Virus record (IMG/VR): IMGVR_UViG_3300028393_000386
Coordinates: 1 to 21,082 of that record
Source of the DNA: a virus
Strand: one strand, 5' to 3'
Length of the DNA: 21,082 bases
Shown here piece by piece: positions 3,348 through 17,488 of this stretch. Numbering within the stretch: position 1 is the stretch's first letter; each line of letters begins with the position of its first letter. The notes under the pieces are model-generated. The model was not told the DNA's origin and made no database searches. It saw only the letters and a list, made by a program, of their open reading frames with translations. A program made the position numbers and the translations under genes.

Positions 3348-5249
3348 TCACATAACCACCAAAGAGTGAAACTTTTTCCGACTCGCCGGGTTCACCTCGG
3401 TCGTCGGCCGAACCTTACCCAGGTTGATCAGACCGCCAAGCGCACGGGCCAGGTCGGTCAGCCGGATGTCCTGCGTCATCGCGTGACGCTCCATCAGCTT
3501 CGGCAAGTACCTAGGCGAGGTCGCGCTGCCCGTCGGCCACTCGTCATAGTTCCTCGCCCGCAGCTCACCGATCGCCACGAGCACCGCCCGCTCTGCAGCC
3601 CGCCTGGCGATCGCCACGCGCTCTACCTCGACGGGTCCGGCGTGCTCCCCGTCAGTCCTGACGTATGCGCCTGCGTCATACCGCAATTGCATTTCGTCTA
3701 ATTGGCTGTAATTAGCCTTTGCTTTACGCAGAATCAATCGATCCTCGTCGGTCTCATCGCGCTCCAGCATAAGCCTGGATCGAACCGCCGCATCCCATGC
3801 GGTCGAGCCACTAAACTGACTCCCAATACCTTTCGCAGGGTGCCCCAATAAAAGAATCCCAACGTCCCTGCTAATAGCCAACTGCGTCAGGACATTCACC
3901 GCCTGAGTAACAATCGGCCTTTTGTTCTCATTGACCGCCATTAGCTGCGCGATATTGTCCAATACCAAAAGAGAATATCCACCGCCCGCCAGCATCTCGT
4001 CGACCCTCCCGAAAAGCCTGCCGACCCGCACCTGGGCCGCGACATCGTCTGCCTCGACCAGCACGTTCGTCTTGCCTGCACGCGCATCAACCTGCAGCCC
4101 GGAGCACTCCACAAGATCCACCCCCATCTGGCCGGCCATGCGGCGCATGCGCAGGTGCAGCTCCGAGGCGTCGTCCTCGCAGTAGAGGCACAGCACCCTC
4201 CCACGGGTCGTCTGCCTGCCGAACATTGGCAACCCCGCAGCCACCGATATCGCCATCTGCAGCGAGATGAGCGACTTCCCGACACCGCCCGCCCCGTATA
4301 GCGATGTCACAGACCCCCGAGGCACCCAGTCGTCCCAGACCCACCGCCTCTCAGGCGGGTCGACAGACATCACCCGCGCCAGGTCAAGCGGGGCGATCGC
4401 GTCCTCGTCCAGCACTACCGCACGGGTCACATCGACCCGACTCGACGCGTCGCGCGCCGCGGCCCACTCGACCATGCCGGCCACGTTCGCCCAGTCGACT
4501 GGGTCCGACGCATCGAAGTGCTGCTCGACGTAAACCCGCACGAGCGCATCAATCTCGACCTTGCCCAGGCCACGGGCCGAGACCGACGCAATGTACGACT
4601 TGAGCGCCTCGCGCCTACCCTCCCCGGTCCGCAGCCTGGCGTCCGGCGCGACTGCCGCATGAGCCGGCACCGGCGCCGACACCCGCGCCGCGGGGAACAC
4701 CGGCTCGATGTCGACCTGATCGATCCAACGGTTCATATGCAGCGTGTCGCGCGTCTCGTAGTGCGCCGCGTCATCTGCCTTGCCGTAAAAGTACGCTTGG
4801 GACAAAGTGAACGACTCGGAAGCCAGAATGCCGCCCAGCACCGCGTTCAGCTTGCCCATCAGCTCGAGGTGCTCGTCGGGTCCGCACTCTGCAGACACCG
4901 GCGCAAGCACCCGCCACCTGGGGCGCGCCTCGGTCGACGACGGCGACGTAAACAACATCGCCCGCACCGACTCGGACTTGAGCATCCCGACGGCCTCGTC
5001 GATCGACACCCTGCCGGCGTCATAGTCGCCCGTCAGGCCGGTCACCGAGACCACGTTCGCGTCGTGCCTGAGCGAGCCGCGCTCGCTGCGCACGTCGCCG
5101 AACCGGCGCAGCGCCAGCAGGCGCAGCGACTGCTTGTTCGCGGCCCGCATCGGGTTCTGGAACCAGCCCAGTAACTGCTCAGGGCTGACATCCATCGCGT
5201 CGATCTTGCCGGCCTTCAGGTCTTGGAATGTAGAGGTGTGAATCATCAT
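3348..5249 (-). CDS. PrimPol-like and RepA-like fused replicative primase/helicase
   Basis: A 633-residue replication protein. Residues about 60-180 resemble an archaeo-eukaryotic primase-type domain: GDYDAG (74-79) gives the DxD metal motif and ARPRWRVLAP (108-117) matches the PRWR strand. The His usually found before this strand appears replaced by Ser in TSPSSTEARP, so priming activity is uncertain. Residues about 300-520 form a RecA-like hexameric helicase ATPase (AAA_25/RepA type): Walker A GAGGVGKS (319-326), CEDD (357-360), Walker B LLVLDN (427-432) and LLLGHPAKG (467-474). The last 100 residues look like a winged-helix tail. Start: GAGG five bases before ATGATG. It follows cro by seven bases, so it belongs to the early leftward transcript. 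Replication role is strong; the primase part less so. Confidence 0.85.
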   Translation of the reverse strand: MMIHTSTFQDLKAGKIDAMDVSPEQLLGWFQNPMRAANKQSLRLLALRRFGDVRSERGSLRHDANVVSVTGLTGDYDAGRVSIDEAVGMLKSESVRAMLFTSPSSTEARPRWRVLAPVSAECGPDEHLELMGKLNAVLGGILASESFTLSQAYFYGKADDAAHYETRDTLHMNRWIDQVDIEPVFPAARVSAPVPAHAAVAPDARLRTGEGRREALKSYIASVSARGLGKVEIDALVRVYVEQHFDASDPVDWANVAGMVEWAAARDASSRVDVTRAVVLDEDAIAPLDLARVMSVDPPERRWVWDDWVPRGSVTSLYGAGGVGKSLISLQMAISVAAGLPMFGRQTTRGRVLCLYCEDDASELHLRMRRMAGQMGVDLVECSGLQVDARAGKTNVLVEADDVAAQVRVGRLFGRVDEMLAGGGYSLLVLDNIAQLMAVNENKRPIVTQAVNVLTQLAISRDVGILLLGHPAKGIGSQFSGSTAWDAAVRSRLMLERDETDEDRLILRKAKANYSQLDEMQLRYDAGAYVRTDGEHAGPVEVERVAIARRAAERAVLVAIGELRARNYDEWPTGSATSPRYLPKLMERHAMTQDIRLTDLARALGGLINLGKVRPTTEVNPASRKKFHSLVVM

Positions 5250-5256
5250 TCACGCC

Positions 5257-5469
5257 TCACTCGGCCCGCGGATACGTATGCGGCGCCAGCACCTCACGGG
5301 ACACGCCGTACAGGTCCTCGATCTGACAGGCGACGCGCGGCGACACGCGCCCCTGGCGAAGAATGTGCGCGATCGCCTGTCGGGTTATCCCCAGCTCGTC
5401 CGCAAGCGCGCTCTGGCTCCCTGCAAGCTGGATCGCCTGCCGAAATGCAATCATCGGTAAGTCAGTCAT
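5257..5469 (-). CDS. Cro-like / YdaS-type transcriptional regulator
   Basis: A 70-residue helix-turn-helix protein starting MTDLPMIAF. The core GSQSALADELGITRQAIAHI (17-36) is a standard Cro/YdaS helix-turn-helix, followed by RVSPRVACQIEDLYGVSRE, as in Cro-like proteins that pair with a CI-type repressor. The chosen ATG has AGAGG five bases upstream; the frame is open much further upstream but that part overlaps the control region and the repressor gene and looks non-coding. It is the first gene of the leftward early operon, divergent from the CI-like gene. It likely shuts down the repressor to favour lytic growth; that role follows from position and family. Confidence 0.85.
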   Translation of the reverse strand: MTDLPMIAFRQAIQLAGSQSALADELGITRQAIAHILRQGRVSPRVACQIEDLYGVSREVLAPHTYPRAE

Positions 5470-12508: not shown

Positions 12509-12876
12509 ACACCGACGAGTTTGAGCGCCTCCCGGGCGGCGGGGTTGGCGTCGAAGAGGCGCTTGCCAGGCTAAAGCGGGAAAGTCCTGACGCCTACGCT
12601 GCGCACGTTTCGATCATGCACAGACGCCCGCGCGGCGGCGTTTCCATTCAAGAGTATTCGCCGGTGCGCGGCACGCTGGCTCACGCGGCATGGACTGCTG
12701 CGCAGGTCATGCACGGCCAGGCAGACGAGAACGACGCTCTGTGGCACCTACTCCCACCAGACTGTGATCGGCTGGCCTGGTGGGAGTGCTTTCAGGATTG
12801 TCTGAGAATGGCCCGGTACGTCGCCGTGGTCAGGGCGCAAGCAACCCAGGCGGGCGCTCCTCGGCCATCGAGTTGA
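12505..12876 (+). CDS. Hypothetical protein, 123 residues
   Basis: Starts MNTDEFERLPGGGVGVEEAL. It has SPVRGTLAHAAWTAAQVMHG and a Trp/Cys-rich segment LAWWECFQDCLRMARYVAVV; no family is recognised. It is the last gene of the rightward set and its last 47 bases overlap the 3' end of the convergent late gene. No terminator is visible between them. Confidence 0.6.
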   Translation: MNTDEFERLPGGGVGVEEALARLKRESPDAYAAHVSIMHRRPRGGVSIQEYSPVRGTLAHAAWTAAQVMHGQADENDALWHLLPPDCDRLAWWECFQDCLRMARYVAVVRAQATQAGAPRPSS

Positions 12877-14155
12877 TGCTGTACCCAAGCGCTGCAAGAG
12901 CTGCTGCAGGCGTCGCCCCTTTGCGCATCATGTCAACCGCTCGAGGCCAGTCCGCATCGGCAAAGAACTTGCGGGTATTCTGAAGGTCGACCCGTGCCAA
13001 CGGGTGCCCTTCGTCTCGGGCAATCTTTTCGCGCAGCACGTTTGTCACGTCGTCACTTGCACGGATCTTGTCTGCCACAACTGGCAAATCCTTGAACCGA
13101 TCCAGTGCCTGCGATGTGTACTGCCCCGTGAACTGCTCTGGCCCAAGACCTGGGACGAACACCCCTTCGTGGCCTGCCGGAAACAATGACGCGCCCGGAA
13201 AAATGTTTTGAATCTGTTGCCCTTGCTTTTTGATCAATTTGCTTGGCGCCATTGAGTTTTCGCTTAGACCAAGCAGGTTAACCCCGCGGTCAGTAGCAGT
13301 CACATCCATGTGCGTGCCTTTCATAAGGGCATCGAGCGCGGACATCTGTGCAACGGTAGGCTGCACGCCGCCCGTATCGACAAGCACGTTCGACTTGCCT
13401 TTTCTTGACTGGGTGGTGACCGGCAAGTTGCCTGCAGAAAATTCCTGGGCGTCAAGCAGGCCGCGCAACCCTTGGACCGCTTCAAGTGCCTTTTGAGTGC
13501 CAGGCGCAACCTGATTGGTCTGTACGATGTTCGGCGACGCCGGCCCAACAAAGTCTTTCCCCGGCTTACCAGGAACGGTTTCAAAGTCAGACAAAACTCG
13601 CGAAATGGTCATCGGGTTTTGCTCAAGCAGGCCGGCCAAGTTGTAGTAGTTGCCGACTGACTCGACCGCCGGTATTTGGCGCAGACCGACCGCGTCAATC
13701 AGTACGTCACGGTTTCCTGACCCAATGCCAATCGGTGACGGCTCATTGATTGGTCGCGTCCATCGTGCGGAATCGGCGTAGGCTTTCTTCTCATCAAACG
13801 GCGCATTCAGAATGTCAGAGCGATGCCCTGTCACAAACCCTGGCACGTCCTCGTTTGTGAGGCTCATGGTGTGTTTTGGGAAATAGTCCGCGATCGTGTT
13901 GTTGGCGTCGATCAGCGCGTTACTGATTGCCTCTGCCTTGCCCCCTGCAAAATTCTTGGCGCCGTACTTGCCGGTGGCACTTGACCCTCGATCGTAGAAG
14001 TCCTGGGCTTTCATGTTTACCCATGGCAGTTCTTGAAGCTGCGACCCAGTCCAACTATCAAGCCCGCCAAAACTGCCTTCTGCGGCGCGTTTTGTGCGCA
14101 ACGCCGTCTCGGCGTCCATAAACGGGTGCATTGTTGCGGTGACCCCCCCTTCCAC
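12830..14155 (-). CDS. C-terminal part of a split virion-associated protein (-1 frame)
   Basis: This 441-codon frame reads on directly from the protein encoded at 14144-15210 after a -1 change of frame at seven Gs (14143-14149). The nominal GTG start at 14155 has no ribosome site and lies inside the upstream frame, so separate initiation is unlikely. The joined product would be about 793 residues. The start of this part, GGVTATMHPFMDAETALRTK, continues naturally from FEYTTPNGDPWKGG upstream. Its sequence has motifs such as SWTGSQLQELPWVNMKAQDF and looks like a folded soluble domain; the end is KGATPAAALAALGYSINSMA. No enzyme family is recognised. Position among late genes suggests a virion-associated or ejected protein. 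Confidence 0.6.
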   Translation of the reverse strand: MEGGVTATMHPFMDAETALRTKRAAEGSFGGLDSWTGSQLQELPWVNMKAQDFYDRGSSATGKYGAKNFAGGKAEAISNALIDANNTIADYFPKHTMSLTNEDVPGFVTGHRSDILNAPFDEKKAYADSARWTRPINEPSPIGIGSGNRDVLIDAVGLRQIPAVESVGNYYNLAGLLEQNPMTISRVLSDFETVPGKPGKDFVGPASPNIVQTNQVAPGTQKALEAVQGLRGLLDAQEFSAGNLPVTTQSRKGKSNVLVDTGGVQPTVAQMSALDALMKGTHMDVTATDRGVNLLGLSENSMAPSKLIKKQGQQIQNIFPGASLFPAGHEGVFVPGLGPEQFTGQYTSQALDRFKDLPVVADKIRASDDVTNVLREKIARDEGHPLARVDLQNTRKFFADADWPRAVDMMRKGATPAAALAALGYSINSMAEERPPGLLAP

Positions 14156-15210
14156 GGGTCGCCGTTTGGAGTGGTGTACTCAAACCCTTGCGCATTTCGG
14201 AAATCATTAACGCCGAACAAGCCGCCAATCGGAACGCGAGGATCGATTTTCTCCCCATACTCCGAAACTTTGTCGGCGAGCTTAGGATAAACACCTGCAG
14301 CAGCGGCGTCATCCAGCTTGTTCATTGCGGCTGTTCGATAAGCCATGACAGGGTCGCCAATCGCGCGACTGTTGCCGTGCTTTAACGCAAACGCCAGCTC
14401 GGTTTCTGGCGACACTCCTGCGCTGTAGACACTATGCGCAGCCTTGTTGGTGTCAATCTGGCTTGGAAGGCTTGAATCTGCCATGCCCTGCTTTGCCCGC
14501 GGATACCAAGTTCCTACCCTAGCTTCGTCGCCGTAAGTTCGCTCTGCATATCCAACCGCATCTGCCGCCTCTTTGATCTGGTCGTCCATGCGCCGACGGT
14601 ATGCGCCCAGGCTACTGCCGCGAGTAATGTGCCTGGGCGCACCAATTAACCCGCCAGATCCGTCGTCTCTGAGGTGCTCACCTCTTGTGGCCGCGCGCAG
14701 TACGGCATCGTCGCCTTCCTCTTGCGCCATTGTTCGATACTTGCGCGGTTCAACTGCACCGCGCTGCGCCGGCCGTGGGTTTTCGACCGGAGCTTGGTTC
14801 GCCATTGCGTCGACCTTAGCTCGCGTCCTGGCTTCCTGCACCTGCTTGTTGCCAAAGTTCTTCAGCTCGTCAGGCAAGGCGTCCTCGACAACCTTTGCAA
14901 CCTTCTTGCCACCTTTCTTTGCAAGTGCCCCAACCCCGCCAACCACCGGCAGCAACCCAACCGCACCAAGCGCCATCCCCAGCCCGTCGCCCTCACGCCG
15001 AGCACGCTCAAAGTCCCGCGCCCCCATGGCCGTCCCCAACCCCGGCACGAACCCCAGCGCGATGTCCGCGGCCGTTTCGCTGCCGGTCATCTCCGGCTGA
15101 TCAAGCAGCAGGGACTTCTGCATGTACCGGCGCACGGCGCCTGGCACGTCCTTGAGCCGCTCATTGACCGGGCGATAGTCGCCCAGTAGGCCGGTGATTT
15201 TTTCTGCCAT
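14017..15210 (-). CDS. N-terminal part of a split virion-associated protein
   Basis: Starts MAEKITGLLGDYRPVNERLK, with GGAGG six bases before the ATG. Residues about 44-95 are Gly/Ala-rich and hydrophobic (ADIALGFVPGLGTAMG and LGMALGAVGLLPVVGGVGAL), as in proteins that insert into membranes on DNA delivery; then a basic linker KKGGKKVAKVVED and a long helical/soluble region. Reading up to about residue 356 (WKGG) looks coding; the remaining 41 codons to 14017 are Arg/Cys-rich and look out of frame. The product probably continues in the -1 frame to 12830. It starts two bases after the stop of the metallophosphoesterase gene. Likely internal virion or ejected protein; function not known. Confidence 0.65.
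   Translation of the reverse strand: MAEKITGLLGDYRPVNERLKDVPGAVRRYMQKSLLLDQPEMTGSETAADIALGFVPGLGTAMGARDFERARREGDGLGMALGAVGLLPVVGGVGALAKKGGKKVAKVVEDALPDELKNFGNKQVQEARTRAKVDAMANQAPVENPRPAQRGAVEPRKYRTMAQEEGDDAVLRAATRGEHLRDDGSGGLIGAPRHITRGSSLGAYRRRMDDQIKEAADAVGYAERTYGDEARVGTWYPRAKQGMADSSLPSQIDTNKAAHSVYSAGVSPETELAFALKHGNSRAIGDPVMAYRTAAMNKLDDAAAAGVYPKLADKVSEYGEKIDPRVPIGGLFGVNDFRNAQGFEYTTPNGDPWKGGSPQQCTRLWTPRRRCAQNAPQKAVLAGLIVGLGRSFKNCHG
14143..14149 (-). other. G GGG GGG slip site (programmed frameshift or indel)
   Basis: The incoming frame reads AAG GGG GGG TCA; the outgoing frame reads GGG GTC ACC. The seven Gs match the X XXY YYZ layout for -1 slippage exactly. A six-base-pair hairpin (ACGCCG-AGA-CGGCGT, 14101-14115) follows, but 27 bases downstream, further than usual for a stimulator. 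A homopolymer sequencing or assembly error gives the same picture. Confidence 0.5.
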
Positions 15211-16166: not shown

Positions 16167-16445
16167 TCAACCGCCGATCTTGCCGGCGACGGCAAGAATG
16201 TCGATCCGCTTGATCATCCCAACCGGGATCTCTGTCAGGTGCGCGTGCCCGCCTTTTGTCTTGGTCGCAATGAGCTGACACCAGTCCTCGTCCAGGTGCG
16301 TCATAAAACCGACCGTGACGCAGTCCATGTGCCCCTTGCGTTTCGGTGCCGTCGGCGTGCTGCCCTCTTGCCAGTGCGGGTTGGTGCTCATTGCGGCATC
16401 GATCCAGTGGACTGCAACCATCTGGTCGGATTTGCCGCGGCTCAT
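16167..16445 (-). CDS. Hypothetical protein, 92 residues
   Basis: Starts MSRGKSDQMVAVHWIDAAMS and ends RIDILAVAGKIGG. It contains CVTVGFMTHLDEDWCQLIAT, which looks like a small beta-rich fold, as in compact phage accessory proteins. There is no signal peptide or membrane span, so it is unlikely to be a spanin. Its ATG overlaps the stop of the lysozyme-holin gene as ATGA, and its stop comes one base before the metallophosphoesterase ATG. Family unknown. Confidence 0.65.
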   Translation of the reverse strand: MSRGKSDQMVAVHWIDAAMSTNPHWQEGSTPTAPKRKGHMDCVTVGFMTHLDEDWCQLIATKTKGGHAHLTEIPVGMIKRIDILAVAGKIGG

Positions 16446-17488
16446 TTGCTGGCCTCGGCTCCGAGACCGCGGGACTTGCTGACCGTGAACGAACTTCCCA
16501 ACCAGAACCCGACGACGCTACCGAGCACGCCCGTCACCACCGATGAGGCGATCGCCGCGCGGACCTCGTTGGAGAACCCCTCGGTGTTCTGAAAGACGTA
16601 CCAGATAGTCACGTACAGCAATGGCAAGAGCGCAGCAGTCACCAGCAGCGCCGGGTTCTGCCAGACGTTGCCTGCAGGCTTGGAGGCGAACTCCCTGGCG
16701 CCCGCAATGCCTCCGCCGCCGGCTTCGATCAGCTCGTAGAACTGGGACTGCACTGCGGCGGTCGCGGCCTGCAGTTTCTCGGGGTCCTTCTGCATCTGCT
16801 CTACCGCGTCCTGCAGGTTCGTTGACTTGGTCGCTTCTACGATCAGGTCGCCGACTTGCTGGGCGACGACGACATTTCGGTCGGTGACCGAGGTGCCGTC
16901 TGTGAAGACTTTTGTCAGGGTCGGGATCATCCCGACAATTGTGGGTAGCAGGGCAGCTAGAACCGGCAGCATTGGCTTGTCCTCGTCAGTGGGTAGATTG
17001 ACCGCGGCTACTGCAGCAGCGGCTTGTACGGGCGCGGGGGCAGTCTGAAACAGGGCACGCTCGGCTTCGCGCCGGCGCACCAGGCCGGGCATGACGACGC
17101 CCCCGCCACGGTTCCATCTTTTGAACTCGCCAGCGGCGTCGGCAAACTTGCCGGCATTTACAAAGCGCAGCAGAGTGCTGCTGGCGAGTGCATTACTTCC
17201 AAGATTGTAGGAAAAGCTTACCAAGGCGCCGAACTGATTAGGGTTGAGTTTGACCGTAACAAGCCTCGCGACTTGTGCTGCGAACCTATCTACGTCGTAT
17301 GACAAGAACTGCGTCGCTTGAGCCTCGGTGCAGGTATCGCGCAGCGCAACGAGCTGCCCCGACGGATACTTCGTCGTGCCGTACCCGATCGTGTACGGAC
17401 GACCGCCGCTCGCCGGGTCTGGGTACGCCTTTAAGCGCAGCCCCTCGAACCGCTTTATCAGATCAATCGTGGCCTGGTTGACTGTCAT
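16442..17488 (-). CDS. GH24 lysozyme fused to a holin-like membrane domain
   Basis: A 348-residue lysis protein. Residues 1-150 are a T4/lambdoid-type muramidase: Glu15 (FEGLRL), Asp24 (AYPD) and Thr33 (YTIGYG) match the Glu11/Asp20/Thr26 triad of T4 lysozyme with the same spacing for the first pair, and SFSYNLGSNAL follows at 91-101. After an Ala/Pro linker come three hydrophobic stretches: 173-192, 279-299 and 309-332, with a charged helical region between the first two. The last two resemble the end of three-span holins, including GTA-type ones. A single chain with both activities is unusual. It overlaps the upstream gene (ATGA) and the downstream gene (ATGA). There is no N-terminal signal. 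The lysozyme call is firm, the holin part likely. Confidence 0.85.
   Translation of the reverse strand: MTVNQATIDLIKRFEGLRLKAYPDPASGGRPYTIGYGTTKYPSGQLVALRDTCTEAQATQFLSYDVDRFAAQVARLVTVKLNPNQFGALVSFSYNLGSNALASSTLLRFVNAGKFADAAGEFKRWNRGGGVVMPGLVRRREAERALFQTAPAPVQAAAAVAAVNLPTDEDKPMLPVLAALLPTIVGMIPTLTKVFTDGTSVTDRNVVVAQQVGDLIVEATKSTNLQDAVEQMQKDPEKLQAATAAVQSQFYELIEAGGGGIAGAREFASKPAGNVWQNPALLVTAALLPLLYVTIWYVFQNTEGFSNEVRAAIASSVVTGVLGSVVGFWLGSSFTVSKSRGLGAEASK

Follow-up and report, generated by a model that had tools for sequence, protein, structure and literature searches.

One gene on the minus strand of the window—that is, the whole stretch of 21,082 nucleotides analysed, from the IMG/VR record IMGVR_UViG_3300028393_000386—appears, with moderate confidence, to be a single-gene lysis module, in which a GH24 endolysin is placed ahead of a TeaA-type holin domain and the natural fusion probably yields two products. 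Phages normally time lysis by separating the holin, which acts as the clock, from the enzyme. The initial annotation, made from the letters alone, had described a lysozyme and a holin-like domain in a single polypeptide, and this was borne out, a GH24 domain being followed in frame by a three-segment domain of 176 residues (Table 1). The ORF (16442-17488, minus strand) begins with the ATG at 17488 and reaches its stop at 16442 without any internal stop, and the frame was confirmed as real, since all 40 genes compared run through the join without interruption. A natural holin-endolysin fusion (PMC9527704), an endolysin with a C-terminal transmembrane (TM) segment (PMC8879335) and internal starts in endolysins of Gram-positive phages (PMC9430671) are already known; a search of the open literature, with most subscription journals outside its coverage, returned no report of this combination. 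A lineage with one frame, swapped enzymes and a retained start signal allows tests of whether enzyme and hole can be one polypeptide, as well as of whether two starts within one gene can set the time of lysis.

Table 1 Features of the fused gene and its immediate neighbours (window coordinates)
Feature	Position	Strand	Remarks
Upstream gene, 672 aa	17485..19503	(-)	4-nt overlap with the start of the fusion
Putative fused endolysin-holin gene, 348 aa	16442..17488	(-)	Frame open; fusion also present in 39 other loci
GH24 muramidase domain, aa 12-143 (E15, D24, T33)	17060..17455	(-)	Assigned from matches to PF00959, phrog_7 and PDB 9kbq
Variable Ala/Pro-rich linker, aa 149-172	16973..17044	(-)	Length and sequence differ among relatives
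Internal Shine-Dalgarno-like GAGGA, 7 nt before Met173	16980..16984	(-)	Family-wide test; window alone not significant
Putative internal start codon ATG (Met173, 'KPM'), aligned with the TeaA initiator Met	16970..16972	(-)	ATG/GTG in 39/40 genes
TeaA-type holin domain (by homology), 176 aa; predicted free product of the internal start	16445..16972	(-)	
Hydrophobic segment 1, aa 173-191	16916..16972	(-)	Kyte-Doolittle scan, AlphaFold2
Hydrophobic segment 2, aa 281-299	16592..16648	(-)	Kyte-Doolittle scan, AlphaFold2
Hydrophobic segment 3, aa 312-330	16499..16555	(-)	Kyte-Doolittle scan, AlphaFold2
GFWLGSS motif	16490..16510	(-)	Invariant in fused C-domains; FxxGS/T in stand-alone relatives
Downstream gene, 92 aa	16167..16445	(-)	4-nt overlap with the stop of the fusion; adjoins the fusion in close relatives

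The window represents a linear fragment of 21 kb and contains genes for an integrase, a repressor-like protein, Sak4, a Cas4-type exonuclease, a primase, RusA and a terminase; the phage is therefore probably temperate. The gene order of fusion, 92-aa gene and metallophosphoesterase is kept in the close relatives. Elsewhere in the window, two long minus-strand ORFs in different frames (14017-15210 and 12830-14155) share 139 nt and may be one gene split by a frameshift or an assembly error, and a gene for a serine recombinase/DNA invertase (394-1086; phrog_125, E=2e-38) overlaps the start of the gene for the terminase large subunit.

Concerning the N-terminal domain, residues 12-143 are matched by Phage_lysozyme, PF00959, with E=1.2e-42 and 145.7 bits against a curated cut-off of 22.3; the domain also matches the phrog_7 endolysin (E=1e-57), and its closest solved structure by sequence in the PDB is the lysozyme 9kbq (PHAb10; E=2.8e-41). 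As judged by this homology, it is a GH24 endolysin. The full Glu/Asp/Thr triad claimed for it is present by inspection (E15, D24 and T33); across 15 aligned relatives, E15 and T33 are invariant, D24 being replaced by Cys in several of them. The N-terminal signal-anchor-release segment of a SAR endolysin is missing, the Kyte-Doolittle scan having revealed no hydrophobic segment before residue 173. It should be noted that Foldseek with the AlphaFold2 model is informative for the GH24 part only, because the C-domain is modelled with low confidence.

The C-domain carries its three hydrophobic stretches, as had been claimed, at residues 173-191, 281-299 and 312-330 in the Kyte-Doolittle scan, and AlphaFold2 places helices at 173-187, 279-300 and 307-335, albeit with low confidence for this domain (pTM 0.41). 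Its description as holin-like held as well, by homology to TeaA from Vibrio phage ICP1, a holin tested by experiment, for which membrane depolarisation and triggering by energy poisons are known and which its authors placed in the family GTA_holin_3TM, PF11351 (PMC7182436). In BLASTP, the C-domain of the window aligns with TeaA at 26% identity over 98 residues and that of the relative L022 at 33% over 93 residues, both from Met1 to Met1, whereas the comparison of profiles gave 98.6%, as against at most 2.6% for 60 column-shuffled controls and 20% for the reversed one. Because of these Met-to-Met alignments and the controlled profile score, the C-domain is regarded as a distant homologue of TeaA, i.e. 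TeaA-like by homology. No usable match to the window C-domain was found in Pfam, PHROGs or NCBIfam; for PF11351, neither the window protein nor the fused C-domains reached the cut-off of 24.8 bits—one stand-alone relative gave E=0.018—and the C-domain is therefore not assigned to this Pfam family. In tblastn against GenBank phages, neither the window C-domain nor that of L035 gave a match, and the PDB search with the C-domain profile yielded nothing informative. Divergent fused C-domains match phrog_1544, a widespread phage family listed as of unknown function (E=2.3e-12 for L035, 7e-10 for L033), which by profile (98.2%) is the same family as the C-domain; owing to its sequence link to TeaA, phrog_1544 gains a likely function, its members—Bbp1 of BPP-1, gp53 of Pbunavirus and others—being probably holins.

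When viral contigs were scanned with only the C-domain as query, there were 37 loci, to which L044 and L039 add two, so that 40 genes including the window were available; the viral scan with the full-length query gave no match, and further viral scans with divergent C-domains added no new lineages. In the 39 other loci, represented by 38 viral contigs and one contig of a betaproteobacterial MAG (L039), the same C-domain is always found in frame behind a cell-wall enzyme. The enzyme is GH24 (phrog_7) in most fusions and a different one in four of these loci, namely a phrog_90 endolysin domain in L033, L035 and L037 and a phrog_873 endolysin-like domain in L032. In the evolutionary tree, the fused C-domains all group together as one clade (support 100/99), within which those with phrog_90 partners branch off first, followed by the one with phrog_873 and then by those with GH24. 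Since one clade of fused C-domains is combined with differing enzymes, a single holin domain seems to have changed its enzyme partner two or more times at this one joint, and such an exchange on one conserved domain argues that the joined state is selected. That two genes were fused by an assembly or sequencing error might be suspected from the stand-alone relatives, which do directly follow hydrolase genes, but the explanation is so improbable that it was ruled out, because the in-frame join recurs in the 39 other loci, on independent contigs that come from numerous metagenomes as well as one MAG and differ in linker and enzyme.

Concerning the joint itself, 32 of the 40 genes have ATG as the boundary codon, seven from two lineages have GTG and one has CTA. 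For eight lineages less than 75% identical, the CTA case (L037) being left out, the summed Shine-Dalgarno duplex energy was -52.7, compared with -34.7 +/- 6.8 for synonymous shuffles encoding the same peptides (P=0.002) and -18.5 +/- 6.2 at other in-frame ATG/GTG codons, where none of 20,000 draws was as low. In 10 of 12 genes, the window among them, the internal Shine-Dalgarno surpasses that of the full-length start (the exceptions being L022 and L032); it is weak in two lineages, L022 and L044. In L037, a GTG with AGGAAG is present three codons upstream of the boundary, but it was found post hoc and is uncounted as support. The internal start near residue 173 (KPM), to which the initial annotation had drawn attention, is thus supported family-wide by the codon, the alignment with TeaA and the P value of 0.002, whereas for the window by itself the internal Shine-Dalgarno does not surpass synonymous shuffles (P=0.77). 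A conserved internal initiation signal is, on this comparative evidence, located at the domain boundary, and the gene therefore probably makes the free holin in addition to the fusion.

The stand-alone relatives suggest where the fusion may have come from. One of them, L067, was found by a pattern scan, and its protein led to 469 GenBank phage records, TeaA of ICP1 falling in one branch of the family reached in this way. Among 19 stand-alone relatives examined, nine start at most 15 nt from, or overlap, the end of a hydrolase gene, i.e. those of L067 (M23), Vibrio 234P9, Bordetella BPP-1 (bbp2-bbp1), ctpVu19, Vibrio 1.024, Vibrio 1.086, PVA1, PBR31 and VP58.5; the gap is 98 nt in Vibrio 1.243, and no annotated hydrolase adjoins the relative in Pbunavirus, tabernarius, ICP1 and others. 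In L067, an M23-peptidase-like protein (4522-5411) is followed by the TeaA-family gene with a 4-nt overlap, the two being likely a lysis pair. The hydrolase-holin order of the stand-alone pairs is that seen within the fusion; the most likely origin would be an adjacent pair of this kind turned into a single ORF, with the former start codon and ribosome-binding site of the holin remaining within the fused gene.

If both starts are used, the full-length product would be a muramidase-holin, and a free holin of ~176 residues would be translated from Met173; the latter would produce the lethal membrane lesion, at which the fused enzyme, co-assembling via its own holin domain, could reach the peptidoglycan. 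We infer the production of both products, their joint action and the timing. From the initial annotation, which had proposed either a membrane-tethered muramidase or a new scheme of lysis timing, the idea of an unusual lysis arrangement is supported by the conserved fusion, but a tethered muramidase probably does not account for everything because the internal start is supported family-wide. It is possible, though rather unlikely, that only the full-length protein is made; it would then be an endolysin tethered to the membrane, with a holin domain that either opens the membrane or takes the enzyme through it, and Met173 would be a relic of the ancestral start codon. In favour of this, the frame is indeed open through the joint in every gene compared, a natural holin-endolysin fusion is known in C. 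sporogenes (PMC9527704) and the endolysin LysAP requires its C-terminal TM segment for lysis (PMC8879335), yet the start codon and Shine-Dalgarno have been retained beyond the needs of the peptide, even across the enzyme swaps.

The statement that no separate holin or spanin lies nearby is true of the window: the hydropathy scan shows no convincing small TM gene near the fusion. But the record is only a 21-kb fragment, and 18 relatives carry, directly upstream of the fusion, a conserved coiled-coil protein of 88 aa that has a single TM segment at its C-terminus (L019:4209-4475; same place in L004, L005, L007, L009-L018, L020, L021, L034 and L036). This protein, faintly resembling XhlA-type hemolysins (phrog_937, E=0.011 for L013), is possibly a second lysis protein. 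Its position favours the view, considered quite improbable, that the C-domain is a membrane anchor or regulator and no longer a pore former, the holin being another small membrane protein; the same can be said of Xanthomonas phage PBR31, where a family member annotated as a spanin is found next to a separate annotated holin. However, holin activity is established for TeaA itself (PMC7182436), the window and many of the relatives lack the 88-aa protein, and in the hydropathy scan of the 39-kb contig G006 no other clear small holin candidate was seen. An artificial endolysin-LVP fusion (Lys-LVP) from Pantoea phage PA1, which did not inhibit E. coli (PMC11538084), also speaks for a non-holin role. 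The forward primer for LVP corresponds to the beginning of a stand-alone member of the family, while the reverse primer lies beyond its stop, and no check of expression was seen; taken as such, the result is mild evidence that a fusion of this type alone is insufficient, which fits a need for a free holin as well as a non-holin domain there. As a separate observation, an ORF in L033 (3812-4237), weakly similar to Rz spanins (phrog_1403, E=0.001), overlaps the upstream side of the fusion.

With regard to timing, the short product could be the holin and the long muramidase-holin its built-in antiholin, as lambda S107 is to S105, with the ratio of starts setting the lysis time; this idea is considered unlikely. 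The bulky N-terminal enzyme would then hinder the first membrane segment until triggering, and one gene would encode enzyme delivery, hole and clock together.

Lambda S105/S107 represents one lysis gene with two starts and two products, the longer of them with an N-terminal extension; the extension has two residues in lambda, whereas in the window it would be a whole enzyme. SpmX from Caulobacterales is similar in that TM segments at the C-terminus follow a muramidase domain related to GH24, but the window protein scores only 88.6 bits against the cut-off of 700 for the SpmX equivalog NF051871, matching just positions 6-161 of 430. The likeness to TeaA of ICP1 comprises the N-terminal 90-100 residues in BLASTP and most of the domain by profile, together with the start Met and the C-terminal FxxGS motif, although TeaA is encoded separately, an antiholin gene lying upstream of it, and the window domain is fused behind an enzyme. 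The stand-alone proteins of phrog_1544, such as Bbp1, belong to the same family and are often encoded directly 3' of a hydrolase gene, but differ from the fusion in being encoded by separate genes. The TpeE-family fusion of C. sporogenes also unites holin and endolysin in one natural polypeptide, but its holin is N-terminal and of a different type, with one TM helix, whereas that of the window would be C-terminal with three hydrophobic segments (PMC9527704). LysAP of Acidovorax phage AP1 is likewise an endolysin with a C-terminal membrane segment needed for lysis, with the difference that it has a single TM segment, no TeaA-type domain and a separate holin gene (PMC8879335). Finally, Ms6 LysA and CTP1L exemplify one endolysin gene with two products sharing a common C-terminus, as predicted here (PMC9430671, PMC3111421, PMC4777826); the survey of internal-start endolysins excluded Gram-negative phages as unlikely (PMC9430671), and the known short products, from phages of Gram-positive or mycobacterial hosts, are catalytic or wall-binding, whereas the one predicted for the window would be a holin.
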